64,000 nucleotides of DNA from Halomicroarcula saliterrae (GTDB lineage Archaea; Halobacteriota; Halobacteria; Halobacteriales; Haloarculaceae), in the NCBI RefSeq assembly GCF_031624395.1, contig NZ_JAMQON010000001.1, positions 496,001 through 560,000 of the forward strand. The letters run 5' to 3'. The notes below the pieces were generated by a model that was not told the origin of the DNA, did no database searches, and saw nothing but the letters and a program-made list of their open reading frames with translations. The position numbers and the translations under genes were made by a program. This document shows, piece by piece, positions 15,281 through 61,818 of the stretch; the first letter of the stretch is position 1, and each line of letters starts with the position of its first letter.

Positions 15281-15582
15281 CAGCCAGAAAGCCCCTGCCG
15301 TCTGGACTCCGGCGACTCGTTGCGCGCCTCGCTCCGCTCGGTGCTTACTTCGTCGGGGTTCGTCCCCTTTCAGTCCACCCATGCCGGCTGGGCAACCAGA
15401 TACGGGTGGACTGAAAGGGGCGCTGGGCTAAACGAAGGTGGGCGACGCAAGCACTGTCGTCCGAGAGAGCGGAGCTCTCTCGTGATCACGAAAGACGCAA
15501 GGCGTCTTTCGGCCGAGACCGAACGTAGTGAGGGAAGCGCGCAGCGAGCCCCCGAGTTTAGCTCAGCGGGGCTTTCTGGCTG
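15281..15582. repeat. Hairpin-rich non-coding element with nested inverted repeats
   Basis: Fills most of the 485-bp gap between the phosphoesterase and the MarR-like gene. Outer perfect 15-bp inverted arms: 15281-15295 (CAGCCAGAAAGCCCC) and 15568-15582. Inside are perfect 17-bp arms at 15364-15380 and 15404-15420 (CCCCTTTCAGTCCACCC and complement). Then a 9-bp stem with a 3-nt loop (15462-15482), a 10-bp palindrome CGTGATCACG (15481-15490) and a 10-bp stem with a 3-nt loop (15489-15511). No ORF of note. The terminal arms suggest a mobile or folded unit, but there is no clear target duplication. Confidence 0.65.
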
Positions 15583-57377: not shown

Positions 57378-58034
57378 ATGGAAGAGCGTTCCCGGGCCGG
57401 CGTCCGCCGAACGTACGAGCGCATCGGCGACCACTTCTCGAAGACCCGCGAGTACGCCTGGCCCGAGGTCGAAGCGTTCGTCGACGACGCCGCCGGCTGC
57501 GAGACGGCGCTGGACCTTGGCTGTGGCAACGGCCGCCACGCCGCGCTCCTGACCGACGTGGCCGACCGCGTCGTCGGGCTGGACGCTAGCCGCGCGCTGC
57601 TCGCCGAGGCCCGGCGGCGCCTCGGTGACAGCACGACCCTCGTGCTGGGCGACGCCTCCCGGCTCCCGCTGGCCGCCGATAGCGTGGACCTCGCCGTCTT
57701 CGTCGCGACGCTCCATCACCTCCCCTCGGCCGCCGACCGGCAGGCCAGCCTCGCCGAACTCGCTCGCGTGCTCGCCCCCGGCGGCCGAGCCCTCGTCAGC
57801 GTCTGGAGCACGGCCCACGACCGCTTCGACGCCCCCGCAGACGCCGAGACGGGGTTCGATACCACCGTCGACTGGACGCTCCCCGGCGGCGAGCGAGTGC
57901 CCAGATTCTACCACATCTACGCGCCAGCGGAGTTCGAGCGCGAGCTCGCCGACAGCGGGCTGGCGACGGTGTCGTTCGAGCTATCGAGTGGCAACTGCTA
58001 CGCCGTGGTCCGGTCCGAAGGGAAAGGTCCTTAA
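57378..58034 (+). CDS. Trm9-like SAM-dependent tRNA methyltransferase
   Basis: 218 residues from the ATG at 57378. The N-terminus TYERIGDHFSKTREYAWPEVEAFV corresponds to the Trm9/ABH8 opening (AxHFSxTRYxxWPxVxxFL). SAM-binding motif I ALDLGCGNGRHAALL and post-I VVGLDAS follow, then HHLPSAADRQASLAELARVLAPGG. Trm9 proteins methylate the carboxymethyl group on wobble uridine with Trm112. It lies 139 bp before a tRNA-Gly with a wobble U (UCC anticodon), a possible substrate. Specificity is inferred. Confidence 0.78.
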   Translation: MEERSRAGVRRTYERIGDHFSKTREYAWPEVEAFVDDAAGCETALDLGCGNGRHAALLTDVADRVVGLDASRALLAEARRRLGDSTTLVLGDASRLPLAADSVDLAVFVATLHHLPSAADRQASLAELARVLAPGGRALVSVWSTAHDRFDAPADAETGFDTTVDWTLPGGERVPRFYHIYAPAEFERELADSGLATVSFELSSGNCYAVVRSEGKGP

Positions 58035-58049
58035 TCACGTTCCGTTTAT
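58029..58049 (+). promoter_or_regulatory. Only evident promoter-like DNA upstream of tRNA-Gly
   Basis: CTTAATCACG and TTTATCACC are the only A/T-rich elements before tRNA-Gly. They sit about 27-33 bp before the first GCGGCGGTGGT copy (58062), the expected box A distance, but about 125-145 bp before the true tRNA start. Overlaps the methyltransferase stop. Confidence 0.45.
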
Positions 58050-58054
58050 CACCG

Positions 58055-58146
58055 AGTGAGCGCGGCGGTGGTGAGCAACTCAACGAGTTGCGAACGACGC
58101 CGCGAATGCGATGAGCGGCGGTGGTGAGCAGTTCCGCAGGAACTGC
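58055..58146 (+). repeat. Partial tRNA-Gly 5'-end repeats with 3-nt-loop hairpins
   Basis: GCGGCGGTGGT, the tRNA-Gly 5' end, occurs at 58062-58072 and 58115-58125 before the genuine one at 58174-58184. Copies 1 and 3 share 18 nt (58055-58072 and 58167-58184). Copies 1 and 2 are each followed by GAGCA and a perfect hairpin: GCAACTC-AAC-GAGTTGC (58075-58091) and GCAGTTCC-GCA-GGAACTGC (58128-58146). No ORF. Confidence 0.85.
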
Positions 58147-58173
58147 GAGCCTCGCTGTGCGAACGAAGTGAGC

Positions 58174-58244
58174 GCGGCGGTGGTCTAGTGGTAGGACCTG
58201 AGCCTTCCAAGCTCATGGCCCGGGTTCAAATCCCGGCCGCCGCA
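58174..58244 (+). tRNA. tRNA-Gly (TCC)
   Basis: Acceptor GCGGCGG (58174-58180) pairs with CCGCCGC (58237-58243), discriminator A 58244. Anticodon arm TGAGC-CTTCCAA-GCTCA gives anticodon TCC. T-arm CCCGG-GTTCAAAT-CCCGG is intact. No intron and no encoded CCA. No TATA-like DNA at the normal distance; the sequence there is the repeated element. Its 3' 16 nt are repeated at 58413-58428. Confidence 0.95.
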
Positions 58245-58490
58245 TTTTGCTGCGAGCAAATCGCGAGCAGCAAATGCTGAACAGAGAGATTTGAACCCTA
58301 CGAGTCGCAGTGCGCGCAGCGAACGGAGTGAGCGAGCACAACCGTCTTCGCGTGGTTCAAACACCGACGGACTCCGTCCGTCGAGGCTCGCGAAACCTCC
58401 GGTTTCGCTCACTCCCGGCCGCCGCATTCTGCGAGCCATACGGGAGCACCCGTCGAACCGGAGACACTACCGCCGAGAGAATCGGGGCCG
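58245..58490 (+). repeat. tRNA-Gly 3'-flank element with duplicated tRNA 3' end
   Basis: Begins with TTTGCTGC...GCAGCAAA (58246-58274). A minus-strand T-arm-like AGGGTTCAAATCTC is at 58299-58286. GGTTCAAA, as in the tRNA T-loop, is at 58354-58361. Hairpins CGACGGAC-TCC-GTCCGTCG (58365-58383) and GCGAAACC-TCC-GGTTTCGC (58390-58408) follow, then TCCCGGCCGCCGCATT (58413-58428), identical to 58231-58246. So the T-loop and 3' end of a tRNA-Gly copy flank a two-hairpin insert. No coding content seen. Confidence 0.8.
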
Positions 58491-58865
58491 CTACCGCTCG
58501 ACCGACTCCCAGGTGTCCGAACTGATGGTCGCGTCGGGGTTGTCGGCGACGGCGACGGTGAGCGTGTCCTCGGTCTCCGTACTGACCAGTTCGACCCGAC
58601 CGCTGTCACTCGCGGGCCCGCTTGGCAACTCGGCGGGCCGCTCGGTGGCCTGCGCTCGCGTCACGCCGCGTTCCGACGCCCCGTCGGGCTGGGCCGTCTC
58701 GCCGGACTGGCCGTCGGCCGGCGTCCCGGCGCCGAAAATCGCTCGGAGCGCCGACTTCAGCCCGGAGAGAAACCGCCGGATGGGAGTGTCCTCACCCGGT
58801 CCCGTCCGGGGTGCCGTCGGACCGTCACCCCGCGGCTCGTCGAGGGGTATGAGACTCATGCGCAT
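58491..58865 (-). CDS. Hypothetical protein
   Basis: 124 residues (ATG at 58865 or 58859). The N-terminal part is Pro/Gly-rich, then IRRFLSGLKSALRAIFGAG predicts an amphipathic helix and the C-terminus VELVSTETEDTLTVAVADNPDATI is beta-like. Third-position GC is high, but no family is recognised. It lies between the tRNA-Gly element and an HD-domain gene on the same strand. Confidence 0.45.
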   Translation of the reverse strand: MRMSLIPLDEPRGDGPTAPRTGPGEDTPIRRFLSGLKSALRAIFGAGTPADGQSGETAQPDGASERGVTRAQATERPAELPSGPASDSGRVELVSTETEDTLTVAVADNPDATISSDTWESVER

Positions 58866-58917
58866 GGGTAGGGTGTGGCGCTACTAAACAGTTGCGTCGC
58901 CTACAGGTTTGCGCCGC

Positions 58918-59736
58918 TCAGAGCTCGATTCGCTCGACTATTTGGTTGCCGTTCTGGTGGCTGTTGAGCGCCACGATACGGATACTCTCTTCGAGACCCG
59001 AGTCGTCGAGTTTCGCCTTCAACAGGTTGTCGACCTGATAGACGCCGGCGGCGTTGTTCATCTCGATCTCGACCAGCACGGGGTAGTCGTCGCCGCTGCT
59101 GAGCGTGACCGTCTCGATGGCCTGACTGGAGACCGTGTTGATGCCGCGGCCGCCGCGTTCGTACGGGATACGCGAGCGGCCCCGTTCCATGTCCAGCGCG
59201 TCGGCCACCCGGACCACCCCGGCCTCCAGGGTGAGGGGTTGCTCCTCGGTGTGGTGACAGAGGATGGCGTGGAGCACTTCGCCTTTCACCCGGACGCGCT
59301 CGGCGATGTCGTAGTGGTCCTCCAGCAGCCGGTCCAGCAGGTCCGCCGCGAGGGGAATCGAGTAGTAGGGGTGTTCGTCGCGGTGGACGACGTGGCCGAT
59401 GTCGTGCAGTGTCGCGGCGAGCGCGATGATGACCGCCTCGTCGGCCTCGTCTAGGTCCTGCTGGGCTGCGCCGTTGAACTGGACGCCGCCCTGTTTGAGC
59501 AGGTCGTAGAGACACAGCGCTCGGTTCCGGACGATACTGATGTGTTTCGTCCCGTGGTCGTTGTAGCGCTTGCGCGCCACGGGATTGACGTTCTGGGCTT
59601 CGAGATACGCCTGCACCTCTTCGTCGTCGGCCAGCATACCGAGGACAGCGTTGACCCGTCCGTCGGGAAACGCGTGGTCGCCGTCGGGGTCGTAGATGCG
59701 GCCGGCCGCCTCGTCGTCGGTCTCACTCATGGCCAT
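58918..59736 (-). CDS. HD-domain phosphohydrolase
   Basis: 272 residues (ATG at 59736 or 59730). H-D metal site: HGTKHISIVRNRALCLYDLL, AATLHDIGHVVHRDEHPYY (HD doublet) and LHAILCHHTEE, then VRVADALDMERGRSRIPYERGG with the final Asp. The pattern resembles archaeal HD proteins close to nucleotide or cyclic-dinucleotide phosphohydrolases. Substrate unknown. Ends 52 bp upstream of the hypothetical gene. Confidence 0.82.
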   Translation of the reverse strand: MAMSETDDEAAGRIYDPDGDHAFPDGRVNAVLGMLADDEEVQAYLEAQNVNPVARKRYNDHGTKHISIVRNRALCLYDLLKQGGVQFNGAAQQDLDEADEAVIIALAATLHDIGHVVHRDEHPYYSIPLAADLLDRLLEDHYDIAERVRVKGEVLHAILCHHTEEQPLTLEAGVVRVADALDMERGRSRIPYERGGRGINTVSSQAIETVTLSSGDDYPVLVEIEMNNAAGVYQVDNLLKAKLDDSGLEESIRIVALNSHQNGNQIVERIEL

Positions 59737-59851
59737 AGCAAGTGCGGCCAGCGAGAAAAACCCGGGCTTTCAGACGGCTTGCCGTGGCGCGTTGCCGGTA
59801 GTCGCCGCCCCGGGGCCGGCGGTGTCCGGCACTGCCCGTAAGCGGTCCGTC

Positions 59852-60325
59852 TCAGGCGGTCTGTGCGGCCTCGACCACTTCGTCGTAGTCGGGCTCGACC
59901 CCGGGGTCGTCGCTGACCCAAGCGTACGTGACGGTCCGGTCCTCGTCGACGACGAACACCGCTCGCTTCGCGAGGTCGTGGACGCCCAGCGCAGTGAAGT
60001 CCATCGCGATATCGTACGCGTCGATGATCTCGCGGTCGCTGTCGCTGACGAGCTCGAAACCGAGTCCCAGTTCGTCCCGGAAAGCGTTCTGGGCGAACGG
60101 CGTGTCGATGCTGACGCCGTACACGGTGACGCCCGCGTCGGCGAGTTCGTCAAGGCGGTCGTCGAACGACTCCATCTCGTGGCTACAGACACTCGTGAAC
60201 GCGCCGGGGAAAAAGGCCAGCACGACCGGCCCGCGGGCGACCGCGTCGGAGAGAGTCATCTCGGCTACGTCGCCGTTTGCGAGCGGTGCGGTGAAATCCG
60301 GGGCCTCGTCGCCGACTGAAACCAT
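59852..60325 (-). CDS. Peroxiredoxin (AhpE/BCP-like)
   Basis: 157 residues. VGDEAPDFTAPLANGD, then LAFFPGAFTSVCSHEMESF: the P-x3-T-x2-C site is intact with peroxidatic Cys. VYGVSIDTPFAQNAFRDELGLGFELVSDSD completes the family pattern. Reduces peroxides at the expense of a thiol partner. Unlike the protein at 56.9 kb, all key residues are present. Lies between the HD gene and a divergent small gene. Confidence 0.92.
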   Translation of the reverse strand: MVSVGDEAPDFTAPLANGDVAEMTLSDAVARGPVVLAFFPGAFTSVCSHEMESFDDRLDELADAGVTVYGVSIDTPFAQNAFRDELGLGFELVSDSDREIIDAYDIAMDFTALGVHDLAKRAVFVVDEDRTVTYAWVSDDPGVEPDYDEVVEAAQTA

Positions 60326-60418
60326 ATCGCTGGCTGGGGCCCCGAAACAGATTAGTGCGGTGGTCCGGCCCGCGAGTCGCGCGGTTGTTTAAGTACCAGC
60401 CGGCCCAAAGGGACAGCC

Positions 60419-60655
60419 ATGCCCGATACGATGGAGGTCTACACAGGCATCGAGGTCACGGTCGAACACGTCTCGACGCTCGCCAACGGCGGCGCCCGCT
60501 TCAACATCACCGCCGAGGACGGCCGGAAGTGGCAGATCGACCTCACCCGGGGCGGCGAGACCGAGGTCGTGACGACGTGGCGCGACGGTGCGCTGGCTGA
60601 CCTCGACGTTCCGGACTGGCTGGACGACGTGACTGCCCGACTCGTCCAACAGTAG
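60419..60655 (+). CDS. Small conserved haloarchaeal protein
   Basis: 78 residues. An alternating hydrophobic pattern (VEVYTGIEVTVEHVSTLANGGARFNITAEDGRKWQIDLTRGGETEVVTTW) predicts a small beta barrel, then a helix DVPDWLDDVTARLV. Family name (perhaps DUF7113) is only a recollection. TATA-like TGTTTAAG lies about 30 bp upstream. Function unknown. Confidence 0.6.
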   Translation: MPDTMEVYTGIEVTVEHVSTLANGGARFNITAEDGRKWQIDLTRGGETEVVTTWRDGALADLDVPDWLDDVTARLVQQ

Positions 60656-60783
60656 GGCGTGCTCGCGCGGGCCGGCGACAAAAGGTTGATATCGGTCGGT
60701 TTTCGTCTCAGCCCGAAACGTCGATATTAGCTATTTCAGCCCCTCTAAAAGACCGTTCGCGAACCCAGGGGCAGGCAAAAAGA

Positions 60784-60791
60784 CTATAATA
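60784..60791 (+). promoter_or_regulatory. TATA box of tatA
   Basis: CTATAATA, about 25-32 bp before the tatA start codon, in an A-rich stretch. The position fits a leaderless haloarchaeal transcript. Confidence 0.6.
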
Positions 60792-60815
60792 GCAACCGCG
60801 TAAATTCCCATCACA

Positions 60816-61118
60816 ATGTCAGGGACCATCGTACCGCTGTTCCCGGGGATACCCGGTGGGCCGGAGCTGCTAGTCATCCTCCTCATCGCCGTGCTCCTGT
60901 TCGGCGCGAACAAGATTCCGAAACTCGCTCGTTCGACCGGTGAGGCGATGGGTGAGTTCCAGAAGGGGCGCGAGGAAGTCGAACAGGAACTCGAAGAGAT
61001 GCGGGAGGGCGGGGCGGCCGCGGACGGCGAGACGACTGCCGCTGACGACACCGCGACGTCGGCTACCGAGAGCGAGTCCGTCACGACCGAGGAGACGACG
61101 AGCGACTCCAAGAACTGA
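60816..61118 (+). CDS. tatA: Twin-arginine translocase subunit TatA
   Basis: 100 residues. FPGIPGGPELLVILLIAVLLFGANKIPKLARSTGEAMGEF is the TatA membrane helix, hinge FGxxKxP and amphipathic helix. The C-terminal half is Glu/Ala/Thr-rich and acidic, as usual in halophiles. Tat is the main secretion route in haloarchaea and serves exported proteins with RR signals in this window, such as both halocyanins. Monocistronic. Confidence 0.93.
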   Translation: MSGTIVPLFPGIPGGPELLVILLIAVLLFGANKIPKLARSTGEAMGEFQKGREEVEQELEEMREGGAAADGETTAADDTATSATESESVTTEETTSDSKN

Positions 61119-61152
61119 ACTGCCTTTTCGGACGTTTCGGCTGTCCCGACGG

Positions 61153-61226
61153 GGGCGTGTGGCCTAGTGGACGAGGGTGAGGGGTTCCTAACCCCTAGAG
61201 CGCGGGTTCGAATCCCGCCACGCCCG
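61153..61226 (+). tRNA. tRNA-Arg (CCT)
   Basis: Acceptor GGGCGTG (61153-61159) pairs with CACGCCC (61219-61225), discriminator G 61226. Anticodon arm AGGGG-TTCCTAA-CCCCT gives CCT. T-arm GCGGG-TTCGAAT-CCCGC. No intron. It decodes the rare AGG codon. The final 14 nt plus one flanking T are repeated 77 bp downstream at 61290-61304. Confidence 0.94.
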
Positions 61227-61264
61227 TCTCGTTCGTGACACTCACTCGACGCGCGTGGCGACCA

Positions 61265-61304
61265 TCGCGAAACCTCCGGTTTCGCTCAGTCCCGCCACGC
61301 CCGT
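61265..61304 (+). repeat. 24-nt hairpin block plus copy of tRNA-Arg 3' end
   Basis: 61265-61288 is identical over 24 nt to 58388-58411 after tRNA-Gly and holds the hairpin GCGAAACC-TCC-GGTTTCGC (61267-61285). One base later, 61290-61304 (TCCCGCCACGCCCGT) repeats 61213-61227, the tRNA-Arg 3' end. Same order as at tRNA-Gly, with a different tRNA sequence. Confidence 0.88.
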
Positions 61305-61350
61305 GTAGAGTGCCGACGGGCGGAGCGGGTTACGCCATCGGGACCGCCCG

Positions 61351-61818
61351 TTACTCGACGACGACGGCGCCGCGCATGTTGAAGCCCTGATGGGGCGCGC
61401 AGTAGTAGAAGTAGACGCCGGCGTCGTCGAAGGTGTGCTCGAACTCGTGGCCCTCCTCGTCCGTCAGGTCGCTCTCGAAGTCACCGTTCTCGTGGACGAC
61501 GTTGTGTCCGTTGCCCTCCCCGGTCCAGGCCCAGGTGACGGTCGTCCCGCTGTCGACGCGGACGGCAGCCGGGGCGAAGGCGAAGTTGCCGCCGTTACCC
61601 AGGGCACCGACGTCGACGGTGGCGCCGCCGCTCCCGGTCTCGTCCTGAATCGTCCCGTCGTAGTTGTCGGTCTCATTGAGGTACTGGTCGACCGCGACCT
61701 GTGGGGTGCCGGTCGCCTCGGGCACGGCACCGTCGGAGCCGCCGCATCCGGCCAGCAGTCCCACACTCGCGGCGGCCGCGGTTCCGAGGAACGCCCGCCG
61801 GTTCAGTCTGCCTGTCAT
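61351..61818 (-). CDS. Lipid-anchored halocyanin
   Basis: 155 residues from the ATG at 61818. Signal MTGRLNRRAFLGTAAAASVGLLAGC combines twin Arg and lipobox (lipidated Cys25). The copper ligands are in GNGHNVVHENG (His), YFYYCAPH (Cys and His) and GFNMRG (Met). Classical size for a single-domain halocyanin. Acts as a membrane-associated electron carrier on the outer face. Its sequence differs from the 225-residue halocyanin at 37.7 kb, which has a C-terminal helix. Confidence 0.92.
   Translation of the reverse strand: MTGRLNRRAFLGTAAAASVGLLAGCGGSDGAVPEATGTPQVAVDQYLNETDNYDGTIQDETGSGGATVDVGALGNGGNFAFAPAAVRVDSGTTVTWAWTGEGNGHNVVHENGDFESDLTDEEGHEFEHTFDDAGVYFYYCAPHQGFNMRGAVVVE

Follow-up and report, generated by a model that had tools for sequence, protein, structure and literature searches.

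Gene-free hairpin units with duplicated tRNA ends in Halobacteria: candidate DNA cassettes with a plan like that of the E. coli tyrT repeats

Many tRNA genes of Halobacteria are followed by short, hairpin-rich units of a common plan, in which the tRNA 3' end is succeeded by a mini-hairpin (H1), an inverted piece of the same tRNA, a second hairpin and then, 60-220 nt downstream of the tRNA, a direct copy of the tRNA end. Such units stand in arrays of one to four throughout the class. There is, in our judgement, an even chance that they are palindromic, non-autonomous candidate DNA cassettes which insert at gene ends with terminal duplication, on a plan like that of the tyrT/RtT repeats of E. 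coli. In the window analysed here (the whole stretch of 64,000 nt from Halomicroarcula saliterrae), the pair of units behind tRNA-Arg(CCT) and tRNA-Gly(TCC) is one example of a widespread and apparently uncatalogued kind of repeat. The features of the Arg locus are as follows, in window positions.

61153-61226, plus strand: tRNA-Arg(CCT), intact (ARAGORN; Rfam RF00005, 66.6 bits)
61216-61260, plus strand: fold-back of the tRNA 3' end and flank (61216-61237) against an inverted partial copy (61239-61260), 22 nt, 77% complementary, 1 nt between (repeat search)
61249-61260, minus strand: inverted tRNA-Arg acceptor/T-stem piece with GCGTGGCG core, pairing with the downstream copy (arms 61249-61260 and 61293-61304, 92% complementary; DNA fold z -4.1)
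61267-61285, plus strand: type-B hairpin GCGAAACC-TCC-GGTTTCGC (hairpin search; family covariation)
61290-61304, plus strand: direct copy of the tRNA-Arg 3' end, 15 nt (repeat search)

The Gly locus is more elaborate, having units on both sides of the gene.

58062-58072, plus strand: tRNA-Gly 5'-end copy GCGGCGGTGGT, upstream of the gene (repeat search)
58075-58103, plus strand: mirror-image unit, hairpin GCAACTC-AAC-GAGTTGC and then inverted 5'-end piece CGCCGC (sequence reading; inverted repeat)
58115-58146, plus strand: second tRNA-Gly 5'-end copy, with hairpin GCAGTTCC-GCA-GGAACTGC (hairpin and repeat searches)
58160-58172, plus strand: mini-hairpin CGAACGAAGTGAG right before tRNA-Gly (motif search)
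58174-58244, plus strand: tRNA-Gly(TCC), intact (ARAGORN)
58245-58275, plus strand: H1, the first hairpin, adjoining the 3' side of tRNA-Gly (sequence reading; DNA fold)
58288-58298, minus strand: inverted T-arm piece GATTTGAACCC, matching the tRNA's own T-loop variant (sequence reading)
58320-58332, plus strand: mini-hairpin CGAACGGAGTGAG with tandem G.A (motif search)
58354-58361, plus strand: GGTTCAAA, the 5' part of a T-arm copy, broken off before TCCC (sequence reading)
58365-58383, plus strand: hairpin CGACGGAC-TCC-GTCCGTCG (hairpin search)
58390-58408, plus strand: type-B hairpin GCGAAACC-TCC-GGTTTCGC (hairpin search; genome search; covariation)
58413-58432, plus strand: direct copy extending a few bases past the tRNA-Gly 3' end (95% over 20 nt)

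The two loci share the 24-nt block TCGCGAAACCTCCGGTTTCGCTCA, identical at 58388-58411 and 61265-61288, for which shuffled sequences give an expectation of 0 even with 3 mismatches allowed. Within it eight perfectly matched base pairs enclose a loop of 3 nt (58390-58408 and 61267-61285), and one base past it follow TCCCGGCCGCCGCATT (from 58413) and TCCCGCCACGCCCGT (61290-61304), copies of the tRNA-Gly and tRNA-Arg 3' ends at 58231 and 61213, respectively. In other words, the block, the 15-nt Arg copy one base beyond it and the specificity of the copied piece to each tRNA are all as the first-pass annotation had described them. The 19-nt hairpin core is found, as an exact match, twice in the 4.2-Mb genome, at the Arg and Gly loci, and is therefore no scattered repeat; nor did the genome search turn up the 24-mer spread about without tRNA 3' copies. 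A BLAST search of plasmid records with the Arg locus as query gave no match. What that annotation had overlooked are the inverted tRNA pieces in both units, the tRNA-Gly 5'-end copies upstream of the gene (58062 and 58115) and the equivalent layout at about 16 other tRNAs.

The breadth of the pattern becomes evident from the tRNA genes of the whole genome. Flanks were taken for 58 tRNA matches and, with an accessory cluster of about 20 tRNAs left out, 42 genes were tested, a copy being counted where the last 14 nt of the tRNA recurred within 300 nt downstream with at most 1 mismatch. More than a third of the genes (16 of 42) have a copy of their own 3' end downstream; when the tRNAs were swapped between flanks, the average over 500 rounds was 0.16 and no round exceeded 2. 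No 3'-end copies were found upstream of the 42 tRNAs or in the reversed downstream strand. No integrase or island is present between the copies which, being 60-220 nt apart, leave no room for an integrase gene. The accessory cluster itself (G000:C1:884000-891000; L029, L034), in which about 20 tRNA genes are densely packed on one strand apart from the chromosomal set, resembles virus- or plasmid-borne tRNA arrays.

Within the common plan, H1 often takes the form CGARC-GNA-GYGAG with tandem G.A mismatches, and the units differ in what they invert: the T-arm in type A, the acceptor/T-stem in type B. The 24-mer of the first-pass annotation is the type-B hairpin which, as read from the sequences, holds H1 in reverse orientation. 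Single-linkage clustering of the units chained everything into one group, and the motif AGTCGCAG...CCGTCT has 5 genome matches, 4 of them at tRNAs (reversed control 3). Moreover, mirror-image units precede tRNA-Gly(TCC), Gln(TTG) and Gly(CCC). At L043 the tRNA-Gln(TTG) 5' end is found twice in tandem, with hairpins, directly upstream of the gene (position 2002).

The copies are specific to the tRNA beside which they stand. An inverted piece of the own tRNA scoring at least 9 is present in 98 of 149 distinct units, and in none of the reversed or shuffled controls. Other tRNAs also score well, in 50 of the 149, because T-arms are alike, and the variable T-loop is therefore the sharper test: the inverted piece carries the T-loop variant of its own tRNA in all 13 own-genome cases, from 10 tRNAs. 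Similarly, the tRNA-Arg end varies between genera, and of the 18 copies at such ends 10 have the variant found locally, 5 match the consensus and 3 are mixed. It follows from these two results that, in the main, the adjacent tRNA is either the source of the copies or updates them.

The hairpin, described in the first-pass annotation as constant, turns out to belong to a covarying family, with an 8-bp stem and a 3-nt loop, found behind Arg, Gly, Lys, Ser and Ala tRNAs, and other unit types contain different hairpins. The GCGAAACC stem is carried by 8 of about 43 family members, such that the 24-mer, one allele of the family, is rejected as the defining element; the 24-nt match, being two instances of that allele, is less improbable than had been claimed. 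Among 33 distinct type-B stem sequences 99.2% of cells are paired, with 50 double changes, and the covariation score is 0.498 as against 0.169 after shuffling and no more than 0.145 with slid partners, in a set chosen for near-palindromy whose members are related, so that the counts are not independent events.

Neither are tRNA 3' ends, the proposed target, unique in this regard, since some tRNA 5' ends have units as well, and protein-coding genes have comparable end duplications. The tandem-GA mini-hairpin has 89 copies in the genome (16 in the reversed control), of which 23 lie within 500 nt downstream of tRNAs, where 0.5 are expected, and 65 in other places. Twenty of the non-tRNA places were read, and several have a duplicated gene end or a tandem repeat around hairpins. 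In the clearest, a gene with a NETNARPTID motif, the final 43 nt are repeated 145 nt on, flanking hairpins, the repeat leading into a TGA stop codon of its own. The same gene end in a close relative (L241) continues straight into its neighbour, uninterrupted by any insertion, and in a further relative (L242) there is a similar insertion, accompanied by a duplication of that relative's gene end. To judge from the sequences, this is what an insertion with target duplication would look like, although the protein-gene cases may represent a related but separate element.

Several other repeats were observed in the course of this reading. A module of roughly 80-100 bp with CCCACGTTTTTC and GAAAAAGGTGG ends recurs at gene 3' ends in both orientations (L224, L225, L226, L234, L242, L252, and behind tRNA-Ser(gga) in L021). 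Another element, characterised by paired hairpins, GGGTGGGACTGAAAGGGGC inverted repeats and an end of the form GGGGCTTTCTGGC, lies in the window at 15328-15532 and at L227, L229 and L238. Tandem 36-48-nt repeats containing mini-hairpins are found at L221, L232 and L223, those of L223 apparently within a protein-coding gene, perhaps, by the impression of its sequence, a P-type ATPase.

The presence of units varies between relatives. A copy is present at 15 of 30 tRNA-Gly(TCC) loci, 17 of 30 tRNA-Lys(CTT) loci and 46 of 53 tRNA-Arg(CCT) loci, the last figure not being a frequency because the set includes loci picked for having copies. At tRNA-Lys, L149 exceeds L151 by one unit, the distal sequence being shared, and the units of the tRNA-Arg clade vary in order and number among close relatives. 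Insertion polarised towards the tRNA, of the integron or CRISPR kind, looked convincing by eye in this clade, but the count at the strict copy threshold (12 versus 9) is not significant, looser thresholds let chance matches in, and deletions from an ancestral array explain the patterns equally well. Indeed, loss by recombination between the direct copies can explain most cases of presence and absence. As to range, the doubled tRNA-Arg end was sought in about 85,000 species genomes, which gave 25 records, all of them Halobacteria; in the rest of the Halobacteriota no units were found at about 21 tRNAs, which is a small sample. No account of this haloarchaeal pattern, or of rtT/RttR, was found in the openly accessible literature; subscription journals could hold one.

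The closest likeness is to the tyrT repeats of E. coli K-12 (RtT; Rfam RF00391, rttR), which are 178 bp long and of unsettled function. These too lie behind a tRNA gene and share the order of parts, with an inverted piece of the tRNA 3' end, a GAGCGNNAGCGAG mini-hairpin (in the tRNA sense in 4 of 4 repeats) and a direct copy of that end, the outermost stem of the Rfam model being formed by the inverted piece paired with the tRNA copy. All three components, the direct copy, the inverted pairing piece and the tandem-GA mini-hairpin, are present here, the first two in the 16 of 42 tRNAs and 98 of 149 units given above. Unlike the haloarchaeal units, which are of mixed types at many tRNAs, the E. 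coli repeats are near-identical, in tandem and at one tRNA, and their copy includes the CCA. A cmscan of 58000-61500 at E<=1 gave no match to the RtT model, whereas E. coli tyrT gives four; therefore, what is found is a likeness of plan, not proven membership.

Other systems share fewer features. The SMRs and PATEs of Haloquadratum walsbyi are likewise short, gene-free and numerous, with inverted ends or palindromes, the mobiliser of SMRs being unknown; in contrast to the present units, SMRs make no target duplication, IS605-type palindromes are targeted, and no tRNA-end copies are described (PMC3119063). Integrative elements at tRNA 3' ends also leave a direct copy of the tRNA end, but are kilobase-sized and integrase-bearing, with no inverted tRNA piece described. 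The earlier suggestion of an attachment-site-like unit without an integrase thus survives in part: the units are small, linked to tRNA ends and without room for an integrase, yet each is more than an attachment-site-like copy because an inverted tRNA piece is also present. Integron attC cassettes combine a palindromic, recombination-site-like end with a variable hairpin interior and cassette arrays, and the resemblance to the present units may be one of appearance only; the haloarchaeal units have no integrase and no cassette gene.

Of the alternatives to a DNA cassette, the foremost, though we consider it unlikely, is that the units are functional RNA, i.e. structured pre-tRNA 3' trailers with a processing, termination or regulatory role and under selection, as sometimes proposed for E. 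coli RtT/RttR, where the counterpart is annotated as an sRNA (rttR). Stem covariation is compatible with such a role, which would also predict two observations that count against a DNA reading: the mini-hairpins behind tRNAs are mostly in the sense orientation (67 units against 8 antisense, of 149), and the RNA fold slightly favours the sense strand (88 units, as against 57). The stem changes, however, carry no G·U bias and thus no sign of RNA-level selection, which is accordingly rejected: wobble-keeping transitions in the inverted arms number 30 of 710 and wobble-breaking ones 41 of 988, and in the mini-hairpins GT changes (5) equal AC changes (5). Moreover, hairpins are turned the other way in type B, mirror units are found ahead of tRNA 5' ends, similar arrays occur at protein genes, and many relatives lack units at the same tRNA, as in the Gly and Lys counts above. 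We therefore lean, short of proof, towards units that act as DNA.

Two further possibilities dispense with a cassette altogether. A process of tandem duplication and slippage of gene ends next to intergenic hairpins that were already there, the arms being made alike by fold-back repair, would need no mobile element and would account for the variable duplication length, the expansion and deletion permitted by direct copies, the perfect arms (as expected of fold-back correction) and the reshuffled unit orders; it is improbable all the same, in that tandem duplication should double the spacer too, whereas neighbouring units often differ in spacer type, and the same hairpin families recur at unrelated tRNAs. 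Least probable is that the units are scars of site-specific integration, short att-flanked remnants of integrase islands deleted from tRNA 3' ends. Haloarchaeal integrated elements are indeed flanked by tRNA 3'-end direct repeats (PMC7921747, PMC3119063), and in Hfx. gibbonsii partial tRNAs adjoin full ones (PMC7921747), but a common hairpin plan, an inverted piece and lengths of 60-220 nt, recurring across many tRNAs and families, would not be expected of remnants, nor would their occurrence at 5' ends and protein-gene ends. Scars are rejected on this anatomy, the common internal layout largely refuting them.

As candidate cassettes, hairpin-rich, gene-free segments would insert at a gene end and duplicate its terminal 11-48 bp, leaving behind a displaced copy of the gene end, while the gene remains whole because the duplication restores its end. 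Their origin and spread may involve single-stranded intermediates, either hairpins or fold-backs, in which two turn-arounds would copy the target end first in inverted and then in direct orientation; recombination between direct repeats could afterwards add, remove and reshuffle units, and a resident integrase would be unnecessary. Against the cassette reading count the range of duplication lengths, unlike the fixed target duplications of ordinary transposons, together with the fact that presence and absence are mostly explicable as loss and the polarity is not significant. A broader proposal, of a cross-domain class of DNA-hairpin cassettes with a plan common to haloarchaea and enterobacteria, copying ends twice by fold-back and having tRNA ends as its main refuge, is put forward tentatively and is more doubtful.

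For annotation, the units are a warning that not every tRNA 3'-end copy in the vicinity of a tRNA is the mark of an integrated element. More generally, the tyrT repeats of E. coli have so far been an isolated curiosity, and the same anatomy at many tRNAs across Halobacteria makes of them a comparable and testable class, in organisms that can be cultivated and manipulated.
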